Assembly (NCBI GenBank): GCA_004299305.1
Contig: SCPZ01000040.1
Location: forward strand, 1-48,365
DNA from: Methylobacter sp.
GTDB lineage: Bacteria > Pseudomonadota > Gammaproteobacteria > Methylococcales > Methylomonadaceae
Direction: 5' to 3'
DNA: 48,365 nucleotides
Below are positions 30,506 through 38,260 of this stretch, in pieces (the first letter of the stretch is position 1; each line of letters begins with the position of its first letter). The notes beneath the pieces are model-generated. The model did not search any database. It had not been told where the DNA came from and worked only from the letters and a program-made list of their open reading frames with translations. The position numbers were made by a program, and so were the translations under genes.

Positions 30506-31576
30506 ATGTTTAAATCATTTCCTTTGGAATATACCGCCGATATTTTAATTGTCGACGATACATTAGCTAATTTACAGCTATTATCGTCACTTTTAAAAGA
30601 AGAAGGTTATAAGGTACGTCCTGCTAACAGCGGTGCTCTAGCGTTGCAAGCGGTTGCTAAAAAGAAGCCGGACTTGATTCTGCTGGATATTAAAATGCCT
30701 GAAATGAATGGCTATGAGGTTTGTTCGACATTAAAAAGCAATCCGGAAACCAAGAATATTCCTGTGTTATTCATCAGTGCATTAAATGATGTTGCTGACA
30801 AAATCAAAGCCTTTAATGTGGGCGGTCTCGATTACATTAATAAGCCTTTTCAATTTGAAGAAGTTAAAGCCCGCGTCGCCACTCATTTGCAATTAAAAGC
30901 CTATGAAGATGATATGGAGGCGAGAATAGCGCAGGGCATTCGTGAAATCGAGGCCTTGAATAAGGAGATTATCGATACTCAGCAAGAACTTATTTTCACC
31001 ATGGGGCAAATTTGTGAAACCCGTTCGCATGAAACAGGACAGCATGTGAAACGTGTCGCCGAGTATTCGTATTTATTAGCAAAATTGTACGGCTATGAAG
31101 AACTGGAGTTTATGAAACAAGCGGCGTCCATGCACGACATCGGTAAAGTCGCTATTCCCGATAGTATTTTGAATAAACCGGGCGAGTTGACCGCGGAAGA
31201 ATGGGGGATTATGAAAACCCACAGCCATTTGGGTTTCCAAATGCTCAGTCTGTCGCAAAATACCCCGCAACGTCCGTTATTTAAACTGGCTGCGACTATT
31301 GCCTTGGAACATCATGAAAAATGGGATGGCAGCGGTTATCCCTACGGTCTTAAAGGCGAAGAAATCAGTGTCGCCGGGCGTATTACGGCGATTGCCGATG
31401 TGTTCGATGCATTGGGGGCAATGCGCTGCTATAAGCCATCGAAGAGTTTGGAAGAGATTTTGGCTATTTTTAAACAAGAAAGCGGCAGGCATTTCGACCC
31501 GGCTATGGTGACGCTGTTTTTTGATCATTTGGATGATTTTATCGCTATTCGAAATAAATACGCGACACCTGAATAA
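30506..31576 (+). CDS. Response regulator REC-HD-GYP, predicted c-di-GMP phosphodiesterase (copy 2)
   Basis: This 356-residue paralogue has the same length and architecture as the protein at 19648: receiver D61, HDIGK and HHEKWDGSGYPYGLKGEEI all intact. Differences cluster in the linker and around residues 230-260 and 335-356, which leaves catalysis unaffected and may alter partner choice. Both genes are on the plus strand and bracket the minus-strand kinase/CheB-CheR operon. The similarity begins a little upstream of the ATG, so a segment rather than only the coding region was duplicated. It is probably a c-di-GMP-lowering output for nearby kinases. Confidence 0.94.
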   Translation: MFKSFPLEYTADILIVDDTLANLQLLSSLLKEEGYKVRPANSGALALQAVAKKKPDLILLDIKMPEMNGYEVCSTLKSNPETKNIPVLFISALNDVADKIKAFNVGGLDYINKPFQFEEVKARVATHLQLKAYEDDMEARIAQGIREIEALNKEIIDTQQELIFTMGQICETRSHETGQHVKRVAEYSYLLAKLYGYEELEFMKQAASMHDIGKVAIPDSILNKPGELTAEEWGIMKTHSHLGFQMLSLSQNTPQRPLFKLAATIALEHHEKWDGSGYPYGLKGEEISVAGRITAIADVFDALGAMRCYKPSKSLEEILAIFKQESGRHFDPAMVTLFFDHLDDFIAIRNKYATPE

Positions 31577-31602
31577 GCGATCAATCTGAAAAGAGCAGTT
31601 GA

Positions 31603-31886
31603 GCCACGGATGGACACAGATTTAGACAGATAAACAATGGACGTAACTACTCACTCTATGCTAATGCTGGCTTCTGTCATGTCCAAAGCCAGCTTTGAAC
31701 TCCTATAGCACACCTTTCTGGAGTCCAAAGCTGGCTTTGGACAGTAAAAATCGACTTTGCGGTTACAAAAAGAGGGGAATGGATTACATTAATTCTTTGA
31801 GACACCCATTGGCTTGAAATACTCATATTGCATACCTAATATTTTATCAGTGATTATCAGTGATTATCTGTGTAAATCTGTGGCTA
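31603..31886. repeat. 'cacggat/acagat' repeat split by an inverted GTAACTACTCA element
   Basis: The left edge AGCCACGGATGGACACAGAT (about 31603) and right edge ATCTGTGTAAATCTGTGGCT (about 31865) are inverted counterparts. Between them, 31643-31766 begins GTAACTACTCAC and contains CCAAAGCCAGCTTTG and CCAAAGCTGGCTTTGGAC, an inverted relative of 2049-2213. This gap upstream of the RACo-like gene holds no other recognisable feature. Confidence 0.65.
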
Positions 31887-31907
31887 ACTAATTTTTTTAG
31901 GATCAAG

Positions 31908-33470
31908 ATGTCCATACTCGCCGTTGCTTTAAACAATCGGCACCTCGCCGATATTTCTTTCGTATCGCCCTGCAAGGTATTCACATTATTGGCAATGTAC
32001 GAGCGTACTCGGGTACGTTCGGCATGTCAGGGTAAAGGCACATGCGGTCTGTGTTTGGTGCGTATCGACCAAGGCGCGGTTAGCGAATTGACGCAGTATG
32101 AGCATCAGCGCCTCAATGTGAGGCAAATCGCCCACGGCATTCGTCTCGCCTGTCAAGTGACGGTGTTTGATAACGCTAGTGTTACGCTGGTTAATCCGCT
32201 GGCTATCGAGGCCTTGGATACCCTAACTATTCACCCCCTCATAGCAACGGCTAATAGTCAATATGCTGTGGCAGTTGATTTGGGTTCAACTCAATTACGC
32301 ATCAGTCTTTGGGACTGCGTCCATCAGCACCGTGTTGCCGGGTATTGCGGTTTTAATCCGCAAGCCTATTACGGCACCGACATACTCAATCGCTTGACTG
32401 CCGCTATGACGGATACGGTCACCGGGCTGGCGATGAGTGGCTTGGTGCAGGACACGATAGAACGCGTGGTGACGGAGTGGGTAGAGACTAAAAATGTGCG
32501 CATCACGGAAATTTTGCTGGTCGGTAACACGGCGATGTTGGCATTGTTGGCAAACAAACATGTCGAGCAATTATTACAACCTGCGTATTGGACACAGTCC
32601 GTTGATTGCTCTTTAAGTTTTTCCACATTGCGGCAAACGCAAATTCCCATGGCTGTCGTTCAGCCGGTAGCAGGTTTTATCGGTTCTGACCTATTGGCCG
32701 GTTTATGGGCTGTGCGTCTGACAGACAGTGCAGGCAGTGCGTTGTTTATTGATTTTGGCACTAACACCGAAATAGCCTTATGGCATCAGCACAAGTTATG
32801 GATCACTTCCGTTCCCGGCGGCCCGGCATTTGAAGGTTGCGGGATTAGTTGCGGTGTTGCCGCCGAACAAGGCGCGATTAGTCATGTTACTTATGATGCT
32901 GAAACTGGACAGTTTCAGGGGGAGTTAATCGGTAATGGCGAGATTAAAGGCTTATGCGGCTCGGGTTTATGCGCTGTCATGGCCTGTTTACTGGCATCGG
33001 GACAGTTGAAAAAAAACGGGCGCTTTGCCAAAGCGGTTTCTGAACTGGAAATTGAATTAGTTAATTTACATTATCGTGTTACTGTTAAAAAACAGGATAT
33101 TGATATTTTTCAGCGTGCCAAAGCGGCGACAGGCGCCGGTATTGCTAAACTGCTCAGCATAGCAGGTGCTTCAAGCGACGATTTAACACGGTTGTGTATT
33201 GCGGGGGCTTTTGGGCAGTTTTTAAATATTCAATATGCTCAAGCTCTGGGTTTATTACCGGGTTGCCCAATTGAAAGCGTTGAGTTATGCGGTAATACCG
33301 CGTTAATGGGTTGCGAGCAATTGCTTTCCAGCCCTAATCGTGAGGAACAATTAAATGAATTGAAGCGCTATGTCGAAATCGTTAATTTGTCGCAAGTCGA
33401 CGATTATGAAGATGTCTTTGTCGATAATCTTTATTTGCAGCCGATGTTTGCGCTGGTTTCCAAGCTCTAG
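31908..33470 (+). CDS. RACo-like corrinoid activator: [2Fe-2S] ferredoxin domain plus ASKHA ATPase
   Basis: This 520-residue protein resembles reductive activators of corrinoid enzymes (RACo/RamA-type, DUF4445). The N-terminal ferredoxin domain has C40-x5-C46-x2-C49 and C82, the plant-type [2Fe-2S] pattern. The ASKHA part starts with AVDLGSTQLRISLWD and contains LFIDFGTNTEIALW, PGGPAFEGCGISCG, GEIKGLCGSG and the late IAGAFGQFL block. Such enzymes use ATP to drive reduction of inactive Co(II) corrinoid to Co(I). The ATG at 31908 has AGGA 5 bases upstream; a longer start at 31860 would fall in a repeat. The gene precedes a corrinoid protein and a UroD-family methyltransferase, which supports the role. 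Confidence 0.88.
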   Translation: MSILAVALNNRHLADISFVSPCKVFTLLAMYERTRVRSACQGKGTCGLCLVRIDQGAVSELTQYEHQRLNVRQIAHGIRLACQVTVFDNASVTLVNPLAIEALDTLTIHPLIATANSQYAVAVDLGSTQLRISLWDCVHQHRVAGYCGFNPQAYYGTDILNRLTAAMTDTVTGLAMSGLVQDTIERVVTEWVETKNVRITEILLVGNTAMLALLANKHVEQLLQPAYWTQSVDCSLSFSTLRQTQIPMAVVQPVAGFIGSDLLAGLWAVRLTDSAGSALFIDFGTNTEIALWHQHKLWITSVPGGPAFEGCGISCGVAAEQGAISHVTYDAETGQFQGELIGNGEIKGLCGSGLCAVMACLLASGQLKKNGRFAKAVSELEIELVNLHYRVTVKKQDIDIFQRAKAATGAGIAKLLSIAGASSDDLTRLCIAGAFGQFLNIQYAQALGLLPGCPIESVELCGNTALMGCEQLLSSPNREEQLNELKRYVEIVNLSQVDDYEDVFVDNLYLQPMFALVSKL

Positions 33471-33473
33471 CTC

Positions 33474-33643
33474 TCATTGTTATACACAAGTGTCTGCGAG
33501 ACATCGCCATTCCTTCTCGTTCCCACGCGTTGCGCCGCGAGTCACGGACAACGTCGTGTATACGGGACGCAGCGCGTCCAGCACTGCATTCCCACGTAGC
33601 ACGTGGGAACGAGGTGTACTTGAACACTTGTGTATAACGATGA
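33474..33643 (+). repeat. 170-bp element with 20-bp terminal inverted repeats
   Basis: TCATTGTTATACACAAGTGT at 33474-33493 is matched by its reverse complement at 33624-33643 with one mismatch. Inside are CGTTCCCACGCG and CACGTGGGAACGAG, and just beyond it is a CTTCGCGAGACGGGAAGCTGG / GCTTGGGAACGAG repeat (33650-33716). It lies between the RACo-like and corrinoid genes and might affect their co-expression. Confidence 0.75.
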
Positions 33644-33770
33644 GATCTCCAGCTTCGCGAGACGGGAAGCTGGAGCTTCCAAGACTGCATTCCCAAGCTG
33701 GAGCTTGGGAACGAGCGGAAACTGATTTTTTTAGGTTCAATCCATTCTGTAGCGACTACTTACCTTAACT

Positions 33771-33776
33771 GAGGAG
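33771..33776 (+). promoter_or_regulatory. Strong ribosome binding site of the corrinoid gene
   Basis: GAGGAG ends 6-7 bases before the ATG at 33783. No cobalamin riboswitch is recognisable in the 312-base gap upstream, which is mostly repeats. Confidence 0.6.
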
Positions 33777-33782
33777 TTTACG

Positions 33783-34448
33783 ATGCTGGAAAATGTTATC
33801 GCAGCTTATAGTGAAGCTGTTTTTGATACGGATCGTGATAAAGCATTAGAGGTCATTCACGAAGCTGTCGCTCAAGGTGTTACGCCGGAAGACATTGTTT
33901 TTAAAGTGGTCATTCCTTCGATGGAATCTATGATTAAAGCCATCAGTGAAGATTTTGACGCCAATCTGGCCCAACATTTCATGGCTTCACAAATCGCTTC
34001 TCAAGTCACCGATGAAATGGTGGCGCTGTTTCAAAAAAGCCCGGAAACCATTGGCCGCGTAGTTATTGGCACGTCACACGGCGATATGCATACATTGGGC
34101 AAGCGCATTGTCAGTGGCTGTTTACGTTCCCTGATGATTGATGTGATTGATTTAGGGGTTAATGTCAGTGCCGAGCGTTTTGTCGATGCTGCGCTGGAAC
34201 ATAACGCCGATATTATTGCCATTTCCTCCATGATGGTGCATACCGCTCGTAGTGAATACGCATGCCTTGCGGTGAGGCAATTGCTTAAGGAACGCCAGTT
34301 GGAAGATCGTATTAAAATCATTGTCGGTGGCGCACCTTATACATGGGATACCGAACTCTACAAGGTTGTCCAGGCGGACGCGTGGGCGAGTGATGGTATT
34401 TCAGCAGGCAAAGTCATTAAGGATTTAATTGTGGAGATGCACAAATGA
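33783..34448 (+). CDS. Corrinoid (methylcobalamin-binding) protein, MtaC/MtbC-like
   Basis: This 221-residue cytoplasmic protein has the two-domain layout of methanogen-type corrinoid proteins. An N-terminal helical cap (about 1-88) is followed by a B12-binding Rossmann domain. The base-off ligand signature D101-x-H103-x2-G106 is present in GTSHGDMHTLGKRIV. Two further B12 segments follow: IAISSMMVHT, with Ser contacting the lower ligand, and IIVGGAPYTWDTELY. It should carry a methyl group on cobalt between a donor and the methyltransferase encoded next. Its stop overlaps the next start by four bases. No MtaB, MttB or MtmB-type substrate methyltransferase is adjacent, so the methyl donor is unknown. 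Confidence 0.92.
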   Translation: MLENVIAAYSEAVFDTDRDKALEVIHEAVAQGVTPEDIVFKVVIPSMESMIKAISEDFDANLAQHFMASQIASQVTDEMVALFQKSPETIGRVVIGTSHGDMHTLGKRIVSGCLRSLMIDVIDLGVNVSAERFVDAALEHNADIIAISSMMVHTARSEYACLAVRQLLKERQLEDRIKIIVGGAPYTWDTELYKVVQADAWASDGISAGKVIKDLIVEMHK

Positions 34449-35473
34449 TTACTGGAATGGATAGATTAGTAGCCGCAATAAAGGGCGAAAAGGCGGATCG
34501 TATTCCGGTATTTTGCAATTTATTGGATCAAGGCGCTAAAGAGTTGGGTTTAATGTCCTTGTACGATTATTACCAACGTGGTGAATACGTTGCCGAAGGG
34601 CAATTGAAAATGCGTGAAAAATACGGTTACGATAATGTTTGGAGCTTATTTTATGTGGGCAAGGAAGCGGAATTATTAGGCTGTAAAAAGATTTTATTTT
34701 CGCTTGATGGTCCGCCTAATGTCGAACATTTTGTTATTCAGTCTTATGACGATATTCACAACTTGGAGATTCCTGACGATATTATTCATCACCCCGTTTT
34801 TGCCGAAGAATTAAAATGTTTGCAAATCTTAAAACGTGAAGTCGGCGGGCGTTATCCCATTTGCGGTTATGTTACCGCCAGCATGGCATTACCTGCCCTG
34901 TTAATGGGTATGGATAAATGGTTTGAATTATTATTCATGGGGCCGCCTGACGTGCGTGATGAGTTATTAGCCAAATGTTCGTTATTTTGTCAGCGACATA
35001 TTGCCGCCCTCAGGGAATTGGGTGTCGATGTGATTGTTTATGCCAACCCGTTCGGTTCTACCGATTTTGTGCCGCTGCCATACATCATCAAAACGGGTAT
35101 ACCGTGGATGAAGCAAGATTTAAGCGCAGGCACACAAGGCATTGTCTATTACTGTGGCGGAGCCCGGTTTAATCAAGTCATTGAAGCCATTATTTCGCAA
35201 ATCGGCATCGAGACTTATTATTTAAGTCCTTTAGATGATATTGCTGTAGGTAAGCAAATTGTCAACGGTCGAGGCCTGACCTGCGGTGTTATCAATGACA
35301 TTAAACTCATTGATTGGTCGGAACAGGAAATCAAGCAAGAAGTGAAACGTATGTTAGCGGCGGGTATGGAGGGCGGTAAGTTTCTTTTCGGCACAATTTT
35401 AATGCCGTACAAAATTCCTGAACGAAATATCAGGGCAATGTTAGATGCCGCTTATGAGTTTGGGCAATTTTAA
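34445..35473 (+). CDS. Uroporphyrinogen decarboxylase-family methyltransferase (MtaA/MtbA-like)
   Basis: This is a 342-residue TIM-barrel protein of the URO-D/MtaA superfamily. It begins MTGMDR-like (MITGMDRLVAAIKGEKADRIPVF) and has a GYVTASMALPALLMG block and a C-terminal GGKFLFGT. Members paired with a corrinoid protein usually move methyl groups from cobalt to a thiol or another acceptor. The usual zinc-binding HxC becomes Y235-Y236-C237 in VYYCGGARF; a second Cys, C280 in RGLTCGV, may be another ligand. Its acceptor may therefore differ from coenzyme M, which is not expected in a gammaproteobacterium. Translation is coupled to the corrinoid gene. Confidence 0.88.
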   Translation: MITGMDRLVAAIKGEKADRIPVFCNLLDQGAKELGLMSLYDYYQRGEYVAEGQLKMREKYGYDNVWSLFYVGKEAELLGCKKILFSLDGPPNVEHFVIQSYDDIHNLEIPDDIIHHPVFAEELKCLQILKREVGGRYPICGYVTASMALPALLMGMDKWFELLFMGPPDVRDELLAKCSLFCQRHIAALRELGVDVIVYANPFGSTDFVPLPYIIKTGIPWMKQDLSAGTQGIVYYCGGARFNQVIEAIISQIGIETYYLSPLDDIAVGKQIVNGRGLTCGVINDIKLIDWSEQEIKQEVKRMLAAGMEGGKFLFGTILMPYKIPERNIRAMLDAAYEFGQF

Positions 35474-35501
35474 ATAAACTATTCAAGGTATGTTAATCAT
35501 G

Positions 35502-35652
35502 ACTTATAGAACACGGATGACACAGATCAGCGACCGATTTAAACGGATTTTAAAACGCAGCGCCATGTTGTTATGCGCTTTTAAATCAGTGTTTATTCGT
35601 CTAATCGGCGTCATCCGTGTTCCATATTTCCCTTTATGCTAAATGGTTACAC
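35502..35652 (+). repeat. 'cacggatgacac' repeat
   Basis: GAACACGGATGACACAGAT (about 35509) and CGTCATCCGTGTTCC (about 35608-35622) form an inverted pair around AAACGGATTTTAAAACG. It ends with a GTTAC remnant like the GTAACTAYTCA element ends. The GTG at 35617, an apparent earlier start for the DUF1638 gene, lies in this repeat. Confidence 0.7.
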
Positions 35653-35661
35653 ATACAATCA

Positions 35662-36258
35662 ATGTCACCATCAACACTAAGCTTGGTCGGCTGCGGTATT
35701 TTGCAAAAAGAAGTAGGCTATTTAATTGCAAAAAACCACTGGTCATTGACAACGGATTTTTTGCCGTCTTCGTTGCATATTGATTTCAAACGCTTGGCTT
35801 GTGCTTTACAGGCAGGTTTGTCACGACATTCGAATGAACAAACTATTGTTTTTTACGGCGCTTGCCATCCCAGAATGGATAGTATGCTGCATGAGGCTCA
35901 TACTCTGCGAACGTTGGGACAAAATTGTATTGAAATGCTGCTGGGTGCGGAAGAATTTAATCGAGAGCTGGCTCAAGGTGCGTACTTTTTACTGGATGAT
36001 TGGGCGCACAATTGGGATGCCGTTATCGCTAAAACCTTTGGATCGAATATTGCCGTGATTCGCGATATTTTTCACGATCAGCACCGTTATCTGTTATGCC
36101 TGCGCACACCGCAATCCGGCGATTTTAGCCAAGAAGCTGCGCACATCAGCGCTATGCTGGATTTACCTGTGCAATGGCGCGATGTGACTTTAGATCATCT
36201 CGAAAGCGTCTTGCAAACCGCCATCAAGCGTAAATCGGATAGCCAGCATGTCCGATGA
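35662..36258 (+). CDS. DUF1638-family protein
   Basis: This 198-residue protein resembles DUF1638 proteins. Evidence is the opening [17 protein letters not shown], the [13 protein letters not shown] block with conserved Cys and His, [14 protein letters not shown], and a [11 protein letters not shown] block. These proteins commonly lie next to corrinoid-dependent methyltransferase genes in methylotrophic methanogens and some bacteria, but their function is not known. The start at 35662 is chosen because codons upstream to 35617 derive from a repeat; there is no clear ribosome binding site. It overlaps the downstream kinase by 11 bases, tying the B12 module to the sensor. Confidence 0.75.
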
Positions 36259-38260
36259 GCTAATAACCATTCCCGTTGCTGAATGGAATAAACTCAAACA
36301 ACGCGCTACTAAACTCGCCTTGGATAAATCCTATCAACAACTGGTGATGCAGTTGATGAGTAAGATGAGCGAAGCCTCAGGATTAGACAATGTCATTGAC
36401 GCTATGTTGCGATCTATTGTCGATGTCATCGGCGGGGCTAACCTCATTTTGTATTACAAAATTGATGCGGATATTTTCTATGCAGATGTGTATGGTCTGA
36501 AAAAACACCTGCAACAACTGGATGATGAAGGCGTTATCAGCGCCTTCGCCACTGGTCGAGCCAGCGAATATGAACATGATTTTAGCGATACCCGCATGTT
36601 AACCGCTGCGTTCACTAATGCGTACACCTGGATTTATCCGCTCAAAGTCGGTTCGACCGTAATCGGCGTGTTTAAAATGGAAAGCCTGCATATCGCTATG
36701 CGCGATTTGTATAATCAGTTACCGCTATTTTTTAATTACGCAGCGTTAGTATTAAAAAATGAAATCCTCGGATATACCCGTTTACAGGACATTAATAACT
36801 TATTGCAGCAAGAAATTATTATTCGCAAGCAAACTGAGCAGAAATTAGTAGCGGCAAAAGACGAAGCGGAAGCGGCGAATCGAGCTAAAAGTATATTCTT
36901 GGCTAACATGAGTCATGAATTACGCACGCCCATGAATGCCGTTTTAGGATTTTCGCAGTTAATGCAAAGAGATACTGACCTTAGTCCAGAACAACGTGAA
37001 ACCCTGAACATTATCAACAACAGTGGCAGGCACTTATTGGAACTGATTAACGATGTGTTGGATATGGCGAAAATTGAAGCGGGGCGCGTGGTCATTGAAA
37101 ACGGTAATTTTGATTTAGGCGCGTTAGTTCTTAACACCATAGGGATGATGCACGAGCGCGCTGAAGCTAAGGGTTTGGAATTGTTATTGGATCAATCGTC
37201 CAATTTTCCGCGTTTTGTCAATAGCGATGAAGCGAAATTGCGGCAAATTTTGCTGAACTTGATCGGCAATGCCATTAAATATACGCAAAAAGGCCGTATT
37301 ATTGTGCGTTTAACGGCTAAAGATTTACCCGATATTCGGCGCTGCTCATTAATTTTCGAGATTAAAGATACCGGTATAGGCATTGCCAAGCAGGATTTGC
37401 CGTTCATTTTCGATACCTTTGTACAGGTCGGCAGGGAATCCGATCAACAGGGCAGCGGCTTAGGGTTGAGAATTACCAAGCAATATGCAGAGTTAATGGG
37501 CGGACAAGTTACTGTTACCAGTGAACTGGATAAGGGATCATCTTTTACCTTAACCTTAACCGTTACTAAGGTTGATCAATCAGAAATTATCAATAAATTA
37601 GCTCTTGATGGTAAGCGAGTGCTGGGATTGGCGGCAGGACAGCCGGTCTATCGTGTCTTGATTGTTGAAGATCAACTAGAAAATCGATTGTTGTTAAAAA
37701 AATTGATGGAATTCGTCGGATTTAAAGTATTCGAAGCGGTTAATGGGAAGCAAGGCGTAGAACAGTTTATACACTGGCAACCGCATTTTATTTGGATGGA
37801 TAGGCGCATGCCTATTATGGACGGCATTACGGCCACGCAAAAAATTCGCACATTACCCAATGGCGATAAAGTGAAAATTATTGCGGTTACTGCATCGGTT
37901 TTTACAGAGCAACGGCAAGAGTTTTTAAACGCAGGCGCTGATGATATTGTCGGAAAACCTTATCGAGATGACGAAATTTTTGCGTGCATGACAAAACATT
38001 TAGGGGTACGTTTTATTTACGATGAACCGGTTAATGAGAAAAACGTTACCGGGCAACTGCTTAATGAGCCGCGTTTAAAGCAGCTGCCCGAAGAGCTATT
38101 GTCTGAATTACAGCAAGCCGTAATGAGTTTGGATGTAGAGCAAAGCCTGATGGTGATTGAGAAGATTAGAGCAATTGATGCGCCTTTAGCCGATGTGTTG
38201 GCAGATCGCGTCACGCAATTCGATTTTGAAGCGATTACTAAATTGCTAGACTGGCATTAG
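36248..38260 (+). CDS. Hybrid histidine kinase GAF-HisKA-HATPase-REC in the corrinoid operon
   Basis: This is a soluble 670-residue kinase. A short N-terminal helix is followed by a GAF domain (about 30-170), a coiled linker, HisKA (H223), HATPase ([18 protein letters not shown]), REC (D518 in [13 protein letters not shown]) and the same type of helical tail as the other kinases. The GAF pocket could bind a small molecule or cofactor. Because its start overlaps the DUF1638 gene and the unit begins with corrinoid genes, it probably reports on the methyl-transfer system or its substrate. It lacks a DNA-binding output. The kinase core is more diverged from the 5-19 kb cluster than those kinases are from each other. 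Confidence 0.92.

Follow-up and report, generated by a model that had tools for sequence, protein, structure and literature searches.

Five adjoining genes in a Methylobacter sp. genome of 4.49 Mb probably form a sensory input unit, in which a corrinoid-dependent methyltransferase would report its state to a hybrid histidine kinase. The genes occupy positions 31,908 to 38,260 of contig SCPZ01000040.1 (C56), which was analysed over its whole length of 48,365 nucleotides (nt) and is here called the window. All are on the forward strand and encode a RACo-type corrinoid activase, a corrinoid-binding protein, a protein of the uroporphyrinogen decarboxylase (URO-D) family, a DUF1638 protein and the kinase, whose N-terminal input region we name HKn. 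We give the sensory reading a probability of about 0.7, a minor share of which belongs to a version in which redox state is read. It draws on the parts, their conserved order, their co-occurrence, their fusions, their interchangeable outputs and the absence of the acceptor enzymes searched for, all of which are apparent from sequence comparison.

Gene order and the distribution of HKn

Relatives of the window URO-D protein include two branches, that of the window (type I) and that of a second, distant system in the same genome (type II; contig C88, L043:8027-12960, 27-30% identity). With the window protein as query, 18 of 101 genomes gave a match at E<=1e-20, its own genome counted; the protein of Methylobacter tundripaludum SV96 is 95% identical. 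A scan of species genomes yielded 231 URO-D relatives, and the counts over 80 loci given below refer to the best 80 of these (L055-L134). As they make up the closest third of these relatives, what we claim covers types I and II and not URO-D proteins at large.

The record titles of the 80 loci include Nitrospirae, Chloroflexi, Bacteroidetes, Ignavibacteriales, Verrucomicrobia, Hydrogenedentes, Eisenbacteria, Nitrospinota, Planctomycetota, Holophagaceae, Archangium and many Proteobacteria. The corrinoid gene is present in 79 loci and DUF1638 in 67, while RACo lies on the same strand in 51 and divergently in three more (L084, L088 and L093). HKn is encoded downstream in 71 loci according to a hidden Markov model and in 70 according to BLAST; in L059 it is about 5 kb and in L071 about 2.6 kb away, after other signalling genes, and in four loci without it (L090, L091, L092 and L108) the contig stops 181-1476 nt downstream. 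Recurrence of the order in 80 loci whose titles come from many phyla places the arrangement beyond chance. A preliminary description of this DNA had proposed a B12-dependent sensor and tied the idea to conservation of the five-gene order beyond this genome. The order was indeed found across many phyla by title, which supports the proposal together with the distribution of HKn described below.

Two of the loci, titled Bacteroidales (L061) and Alphaproteobacteria (L062), are nearly identical, so at least one of these metagenome-assembled genomes is misnamed or misbinned, or the locus was transferred recently. Another (L068:17164-19514) holds a second, divergent corrinoid-URO-D-DUF1638 set beside a type I system. 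A single-sequence query of viral contigs found no relative.

In the order of the host (Methylococcales), a 14-row URO-D profile matched 58 of 311 genomes at E<=1e-40, in 16 of 50 genera. Two of these have type II only (G139 and G123) and were set aside, leaving 56 type I genomes. HKn was found in 53 of the 311 genomes, comprising 52 of the 56 type I genomes and one of the 255 others (G263, where HKn and DUF1638 lie at a contig edge). The Fisher tests made on co-occurrence in the order ignore kinship among genomes and are descriptive. A further sample of 398 genomes was drawn evenly across the phylum. Here HKn and a type I URO-D protein (E below 1e-150) occur in the same 11 genomes, always with 593 to 783 nt between the two genes, and six more genomes have type II only. 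In these samples HKn is nearly confined to genomes with a type I URO-D protein. The two also diverge together, with pairwise distances of HKn and URO-D correlated at r=0.80 (70 loci) and those of the corrinoid and URO-D proteins at r=0.76 (79 loci), values uncorrected for the species tree; label shuffles reached at most 0.12 and 0.10, respectively.

HKn comprises about 190 residues, a short coiled coil and a GAF-like domain, in which GG, D and PL are invariant in all 71 aligned sequences. The kinase had been described as GAF-HisKA-REC. The HisKA and REC domains stand and, with HATPase, place the protein in the two-component signalling class, but the window kinase has no Pfam GAF match at E<=0.01. 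The weak Pfam matches of 24 homologous N-termini are most often to GAF models (GAF_3 in 12 at E<=1). Among solved structures HKn has no relative below E 0.09.

The outputs attached to this region are variable. HKn can precede a kinase core or an array of PAS domains, and in L104, L107 and L114 it is combined with PAS-GGDEF-EAL in proteins that have no kinase domain at E<=1e-5. Open reading frames (ORFs) that resemble HD-GYP, GGDEF or EAL proteins lie, on either strand, in 31 of the 80 loci. Ten neighbouring regulators were scanned, and proved to be four REC-GGDEF-EAL proteins, three REC-HD-GYP proteins and three REC-kinases.

Layout of the locus and fusions of its parts

The features of the locus and its upstream flank are as follows.

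30506 to 31576, forward strand: response regulator with REC and HD-GYP domains (Pfam), of the cyclic di-GMP (c-di-GMP) phosphodiesterase type; probable output partner
31577 to 31907, no strand: spacer of 331 nt with inverted repeats, parts of it found again at other places in the window; the close relative L028 has about 13 nt here
31908 to 33470, forward strand: RACo-type corrinoid activase, 2Fe-2S ferredoxin and ASKHA ATPase (Pfam); sole PF14574 match in the genome
33471 to 33782, no strand: spacer of 312 nt, also with inverted repeats; L028 has about 27 nt here
33783 to 34448, forward strand: corrinoid-binding protein, MtaC/MttC-like (Pfam)
34083 to 34100, forward strand: cobalt-ligand motif D-x-H-x-x-G, D101-H103-G106 (translation)
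34445 to 35473, forward strand: URO-D-fold corrinoid methyltransferase, type I (Pfam, structure comparison)
35147 to 35155, forward strand: Y235-Y236-C237, where MtaA has the zinc motif H-x-C; the third ligand position is T317 (35393-35395)
35662 to 36258, forward strand: DUF1638 protein (Pfam); alternative GTG start at 35617
36248 to 38260, forward strand: hybrid histidine kinase, HKn-HisKA-HATPase-REC (Pfam), by eye without a membrane segment
36248 to 36817, forward strand: HKn, coiled coil and GAF-like input domain (alignment, profile searches)

Pfam matches above cut-off are RACo_C_ter, Raco_middle and Fer2 in the activase, B12-binding and B12-binding_2 in the corrinoid protein, URO-D and DUF1638 in the next two, and HisKA, HATPase_c and REC in the kinase. 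The corrinoid and URO-D genes overlap by 4 nt and the DUF1638 and kinase genes by 11 nt. ORFs, Pfam and translations thus bear out the five parts on one strand, the ferredoxin cysteines, the cobalt-ligand motif and both overlaps as first described. The start of the DUF1638 gene is probably the ATG at 35662 and not the listed GTG at 35617; counted from the latter, homology in close relatives begins at residue 10 to 16.

RACo is not contiguous with its neighbours in the window, being set off by the two spacers listed. In L028 the REC-HD-GYP gene lies 13 nt upstream of RACo, and the gene at 30506-31576 probably belongs to the same unit as the five genes. The spacer at 35474-35661 also bears repeats, parts of which, as for 31577-31907, recur elsewhere in the window. 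Dispersed repeats may have split the operon in this genome.

Fusions connect most of the parts. The corrinoid and URO-D proteins are one ORF in six of the 80 loci (L092, L095, L097, L098, L099 and L113), and in L085 DUF1638, HKn and kinase form a single ORF. On contig C88 the corrinoid and URO-D genes are followed by an ORF of 1081 residues, which comprises a DUF1638-like N-terminus (Pfam 1.6e-7), an unassigned region GAF-like by eye, PAS, HisKA, HATPase and REC. The pattern recurs in type II: among 20 loci, including the query source C88, 18 encode DUF1638 and the adjoining input region in a single ORF directly downstream, and 12 of these have a recognisable kinase core. The exceptions are L167, which stops at a contig edge, and L182, where DUF1638 and the input region are separate ORFs. 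Pfam bears out the union of DUF1638 with a kinase ATPase within single proteins of L043, L168, L173 and L177. Each neighbouring pair from corrinoid protein to kinase is therefore fused somewhere, URO-D and DUF1638 excepted.

Four kinases that directly follow fused corrinoid-URO-D and DUF1638 genes (L095, L097, L098 and L099, beta- or gammaproteobacterial by title) open with the ethylene-receptor domain ETR1_N (Pfam, 5e-26 to 5e-30).

Corrinoid chemistry and the search for a substrate

The activase has ferredoxin cysteines C40, C46, C49 and C82 (numbered from the ATG at 31908). Its ASKHA domain scores 212.6 bits against a Pfam cut-off of 27, which places it in the RACo class, and it falls below the cut-offs of the NCBIfam models AcsV and RamA. 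The pattern C-x4/5-C-x2-C occurs in 47 of 52 aligned RACo stretches. Within the order, RACo was found in 58 of 311 genomes, namely in all 56 with type I and in two of the 255 others. In one of these two it lies at a contig edge (G251); in the other (G144, L221) it adjoins a different corrinoid protein, of 31% identity. In each of six type I genomes tested a single RACo was found, even where it is distant from the locus (G010 and G096). The distribution of RACo ties type I to reductive activation, and type II needs none or uses something else.

DUF1638 may serve the same end. In Phaeobacter, a DUF1638 protein and a RamA-like protein have been linked to reactivation of the B12-dependent methionine synthase, according to Price 2018 (PMC5764234), a role repeated in PMC12478193. 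C11, C68 and C89 are invariant in all 31 type I and 19 type II sequences compared and stand at or after the ends of beta-strands in the secondary structure of the predicted model, where they may form a metal or Fe-S cluster site. The predicted fold is Rossmann-like (pLDDT 94.9), and the model has no convincing solved relative (best E 9e-4, TM 0.31).

The motif D-x-H-x-x-G is present in 98 of 98 corrinoid proteins. The window protein has the B12-binding domains and reaches the cut-off of none of the NCBIfam models listed. We modelled the natural corrinoid-URO-D fusion of L098, whose URO-D part is 58% identical to the window protein, with AlphaFold2 (pLDDT 91.3, pTM 0.71). The corrinoid half matches MttC (7xcn), among others, and the URO-D half superposes on MtaA (4ay7) with TMt 0.86, in agreement with a URO-D TIM-barrel fold. 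A B12 photoreceptor of the CarH or photocobilin type that drives the kinase would use the same B12-binding fold, and Foldseek matches include the B12-binding MerR-family protein 8jbs and the photocobilin 8j2w; we nevertheless hold it to be highly improbable. The light signature of such receptors pairs GxxW with EH, as given in PMC11796333. The pattern W-x9-EH is found in none of 79 type I and none of 19 type II proteins, though the type II cap has a W. To our knowledge, RACo and URO-D proteins have no role in B12 photoreceptors.

With TIGR01463, the MtaA/CmuA model, the window URO-D protein reaches 76.9 bits, below the cut-off of 235.4. The zinc ligands H-x-C...C of MtaA correspond, as we take it, to positions 235, 237 and 317 of the URO-D protein. 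These are Y, C and T in 78, 73 and 72 of 81 type I proteins and H, A and D in 21 of 21 type II proteins each; the combination H/C/C occurs in none of the 81 and none of the 21 (0/102). Since the zinc ligands are absent, methylation of a thiol in the manner of MtaA is unlikely.

The loss of this site would suit a redox or oxygen sensor, in which the kinase distinguishes Co(I) from Co(II), RACo resets the cobalt, the URO-D protein mainly docks or insulates and no methyl donor is read. The constancy of RACo in type I genomes of the order points the same way, as do titles that include Mariprofundus, Gallionellaceae, Magnetococcales and groundwater, which we take to be habitats of oxic-anoxic interfaces. 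We consider this version unlikely, because the 40 URO-D columns that are invariant across types I and II seem more than docking alone would need and because the type II-only genomes lack RACo.

The locus had first been described as lacking a substrate methyltransferase, which is doubtful. The URO-D family includes substrate methyltransferases such as CmuA, according to PMC9768040, and CdmB (9rui) is among the profile matches. Given these relatives and the missing H-x-C...C site, the URO-D protein is a possible donor enzyme and may itself be the substrate methyltransferase; the missing component is then a methyl acceptor.

Neither MttB nor MtaB was found in the host genome (no search was aimed at MtmB, MtbB or B12 proteins without a cap). 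PF02607 matches three proteins only, a 1233-residue ORF taken as MetH, the window corrinoid protein and a second kinase-linked one. PF00809 (pterin-binding) matches two ORFs only, one of them the ORF taken as MetH, and no pterin-type methyl acceptor (MTII) was recognised besides MetH, the other ORF not having been examined further. On these counts a demethylase whose donor enzyme lies elsewhere in the genome, the other option of the preliminary description, is unlikely. Nor did the neighbour clusters present in at least four of the 80 loci, labelled by eye, contain a candidate substrate or acceptor enzyme. Of eight such clusters some are antisense or shadow ORFs of core genes, and the remainder resemble regulators, a GGDEF protein, an ATPase and a TonB-type receptor (6 loci).

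It could still be that the system is a metabolic corrinoid demethylase with the URO-D protein as donor enzyme, and that the operon's own kinase only controls expression. URO-D substrate methyltransferases act in the chloromethane pathway and in a proposed dichloromethane pathway, RACo and DUF1638 are parts that maintain a catalytic cycle, and in the mec cassette a kinase gene adjoins those for corrinoid and URO-D proteins (PMC9768040). One type I genome of the order (G118, L184) moreover retains RACo-corrinoid-URO-D-DUF1638 with no adjoining kinase, the nearest downstream kinase-like match lying about 11 kb away. We judge this explanation distinctly unlikely. The genome lacks MtaB, MttB and any recognised pterin-binding acceptor besides MetH, no candidate metabolic neighbour recurs, DUF1638 is fused to signalling proteins, and HKn, variable in its outputs, is almost restricted to genomes that have the module. 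A corrinoid methyltransferase used as sensory input is the simplest account of the missing MttB, MtaB and acceptor, the want of a recurring enzyme and the correlated distances.

Upstream of RACo in the kinase-less locus, a receiver is fused to a carbohydrate (glycogen-type) phosphorylase (L184:10130-12988, reverse strand; Pfam).

A type II system also lies in a methanol-oxidation and CO2-fixation island on plasmid pAZKH of Azoarcus sp. KH32C (L194, record 271288-276437). Its corrinoid and URO-D proteins show 69% and 67% identity, and a DUF1638-like region and kinase are in one protein. It is flanked by formylmethanofuran dehydrogenase genes and a cluster for a pyrroloquinoline quinone (PQQ) methanol-type dehydrogenase. 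Sensing of methanol or one-carbon compounds was considered as a general role and rejected, and is retained as a lead only: in a tblastn search with 14 genes of the island (E<=1e-15) against the other loci under study, matches lay near L106 and L122 only.

Proposed mechanism and known systems

In the sensory mechanism that we propose, RACo, with DUF1638, would reduce the corrinoid protein to Co(I), and the URO-D protein would shuttle a methyl group between a small molecule and the corrinoid cobalt. The GAF-like domain of HKn would read whether the corrinoid/URO-D pair is methylated, idle or oxidised, and HKn would set the kinase, whose phosphotransfer would act on output regulators, here probably the adjacent REC-HD-GYP c-di-GMP phosphodiesterase. 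We infer that methyl transfer takes place and that HKn contacts one of the two proteins, corrinoid or URO-D; the way in which the signal runs, the ligand and the sensing of methylated compounds in particular are likewise inferred. The chances are about even that the signal read is a methyl donor. It is slightly favoured that these loci represent a new sensor class, present in many phyla, in which a corrinoid methyltransferase would serve not metabolism but the reporting of a small molecule to kinases and c-di-GMP enzymes, in four loci to a kinase with ETR1_N. Of its two branches, type I would have RACo and HKn, and type II a DUF1638 domain fused to the signalling protein without its own RACo.

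Several observations weigh against the sensory interpretation. In five of the 80 loci (L094, L095, L097, L098 and L099) the kinase has PAS domains and no HKn, and three type I genomes of the order (G020, G005 and G269) have a downstream kinase without it, so HKn is not indispensable. Nor does its alignment show a conserved Cys or His as the mark of a ligand. RACo is missing from 26 of the 80 loci, some of which end early upstream, and from all eight type II-only genomes, of which G479, G483 and G139 are 71, 65 and 83% complete; Co(I) chemistry is thus not proven for both branches. A link to one-carbon metabolism is weak, with a methanol-type dehydrogenase (XoxF-type) in 4 of 37 other hosts, a subset of the 80 picked mostly outside methanotrophs. 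The more distant URO-D relatives, beyond the best 80 of 231, may be metabolic. Phylum assignments follow depositors' record titles, mostly of metagenome-assembled genomes and in part doubtful, and the HKn searches scored at most 10 candidates per genome in the order and 8 in the phylum.

If the proposal is true, corrinoid methyltransferases, so far described as metabolic, are also sensors, even in hosts without a methanol-type dehydrogenase. Many genes annotated as 'uroporphyrinogen decarboxylase family' or 'cobalamin-dependent protein' would then belong to signalling, RACo and DUF1638 genes outside methyl metabolism would gain a likely function, and HKn would be a testable input domain with natural partners. 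It would also be a warning that clusters of corrinoid and URO-D genes are not always demethylation pathways.

Among the matches listed in a search of open-access full text, none described a corrinoid methyltransferase that serves as the input of a kinase. The nearest described system is the mec cassette of anaerobic dichloromethane degraders, in which a kinase, corrinoid and URO-D-family proteins and reactivation genes are read as catabolic in PMC9768040. Kinase, corrinoid and URO-D-family proteins are common to both systems, as compared by description and not by sequence, and MecG and MecH are thought to be reactivation proteins. In contrast, that source reports MecA with a PocR domain, which the window kinase lacks at E<=0.01, and additional MTI proteins and an MTII. 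MecA-D might be the same kind of sensor and not catabolic enzymes. The RACo/RamA-like and DUF1638 proteins of Phaeobacter are of the same two families and serve methionine synthesis (PMC5764234), whereas here both sit in a kinase operon and DUF1638 of type II is part of a signalling protein. In CarH and the photocobilins a B12 domain is the sensory input (PMC11796333), as is proposed here; the window system differs in having a methyltransferase and an activase and no light signature.

MtaA/MtbA and CmuA/CdmB share with it the URO-D fold and a cognate corrinoid protein; unlike them, the window-type URO-D protein is linked to signalling proteins and lacks the H-x-C...C site of MtaA. In TorT-TorS, LuxP-LuxQ and HbpS-SenS a separate protein presents the signal to the kinase. 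The auxiliary protein proposed here differs from those in being a corrinoid methyltransferase with its own activase.

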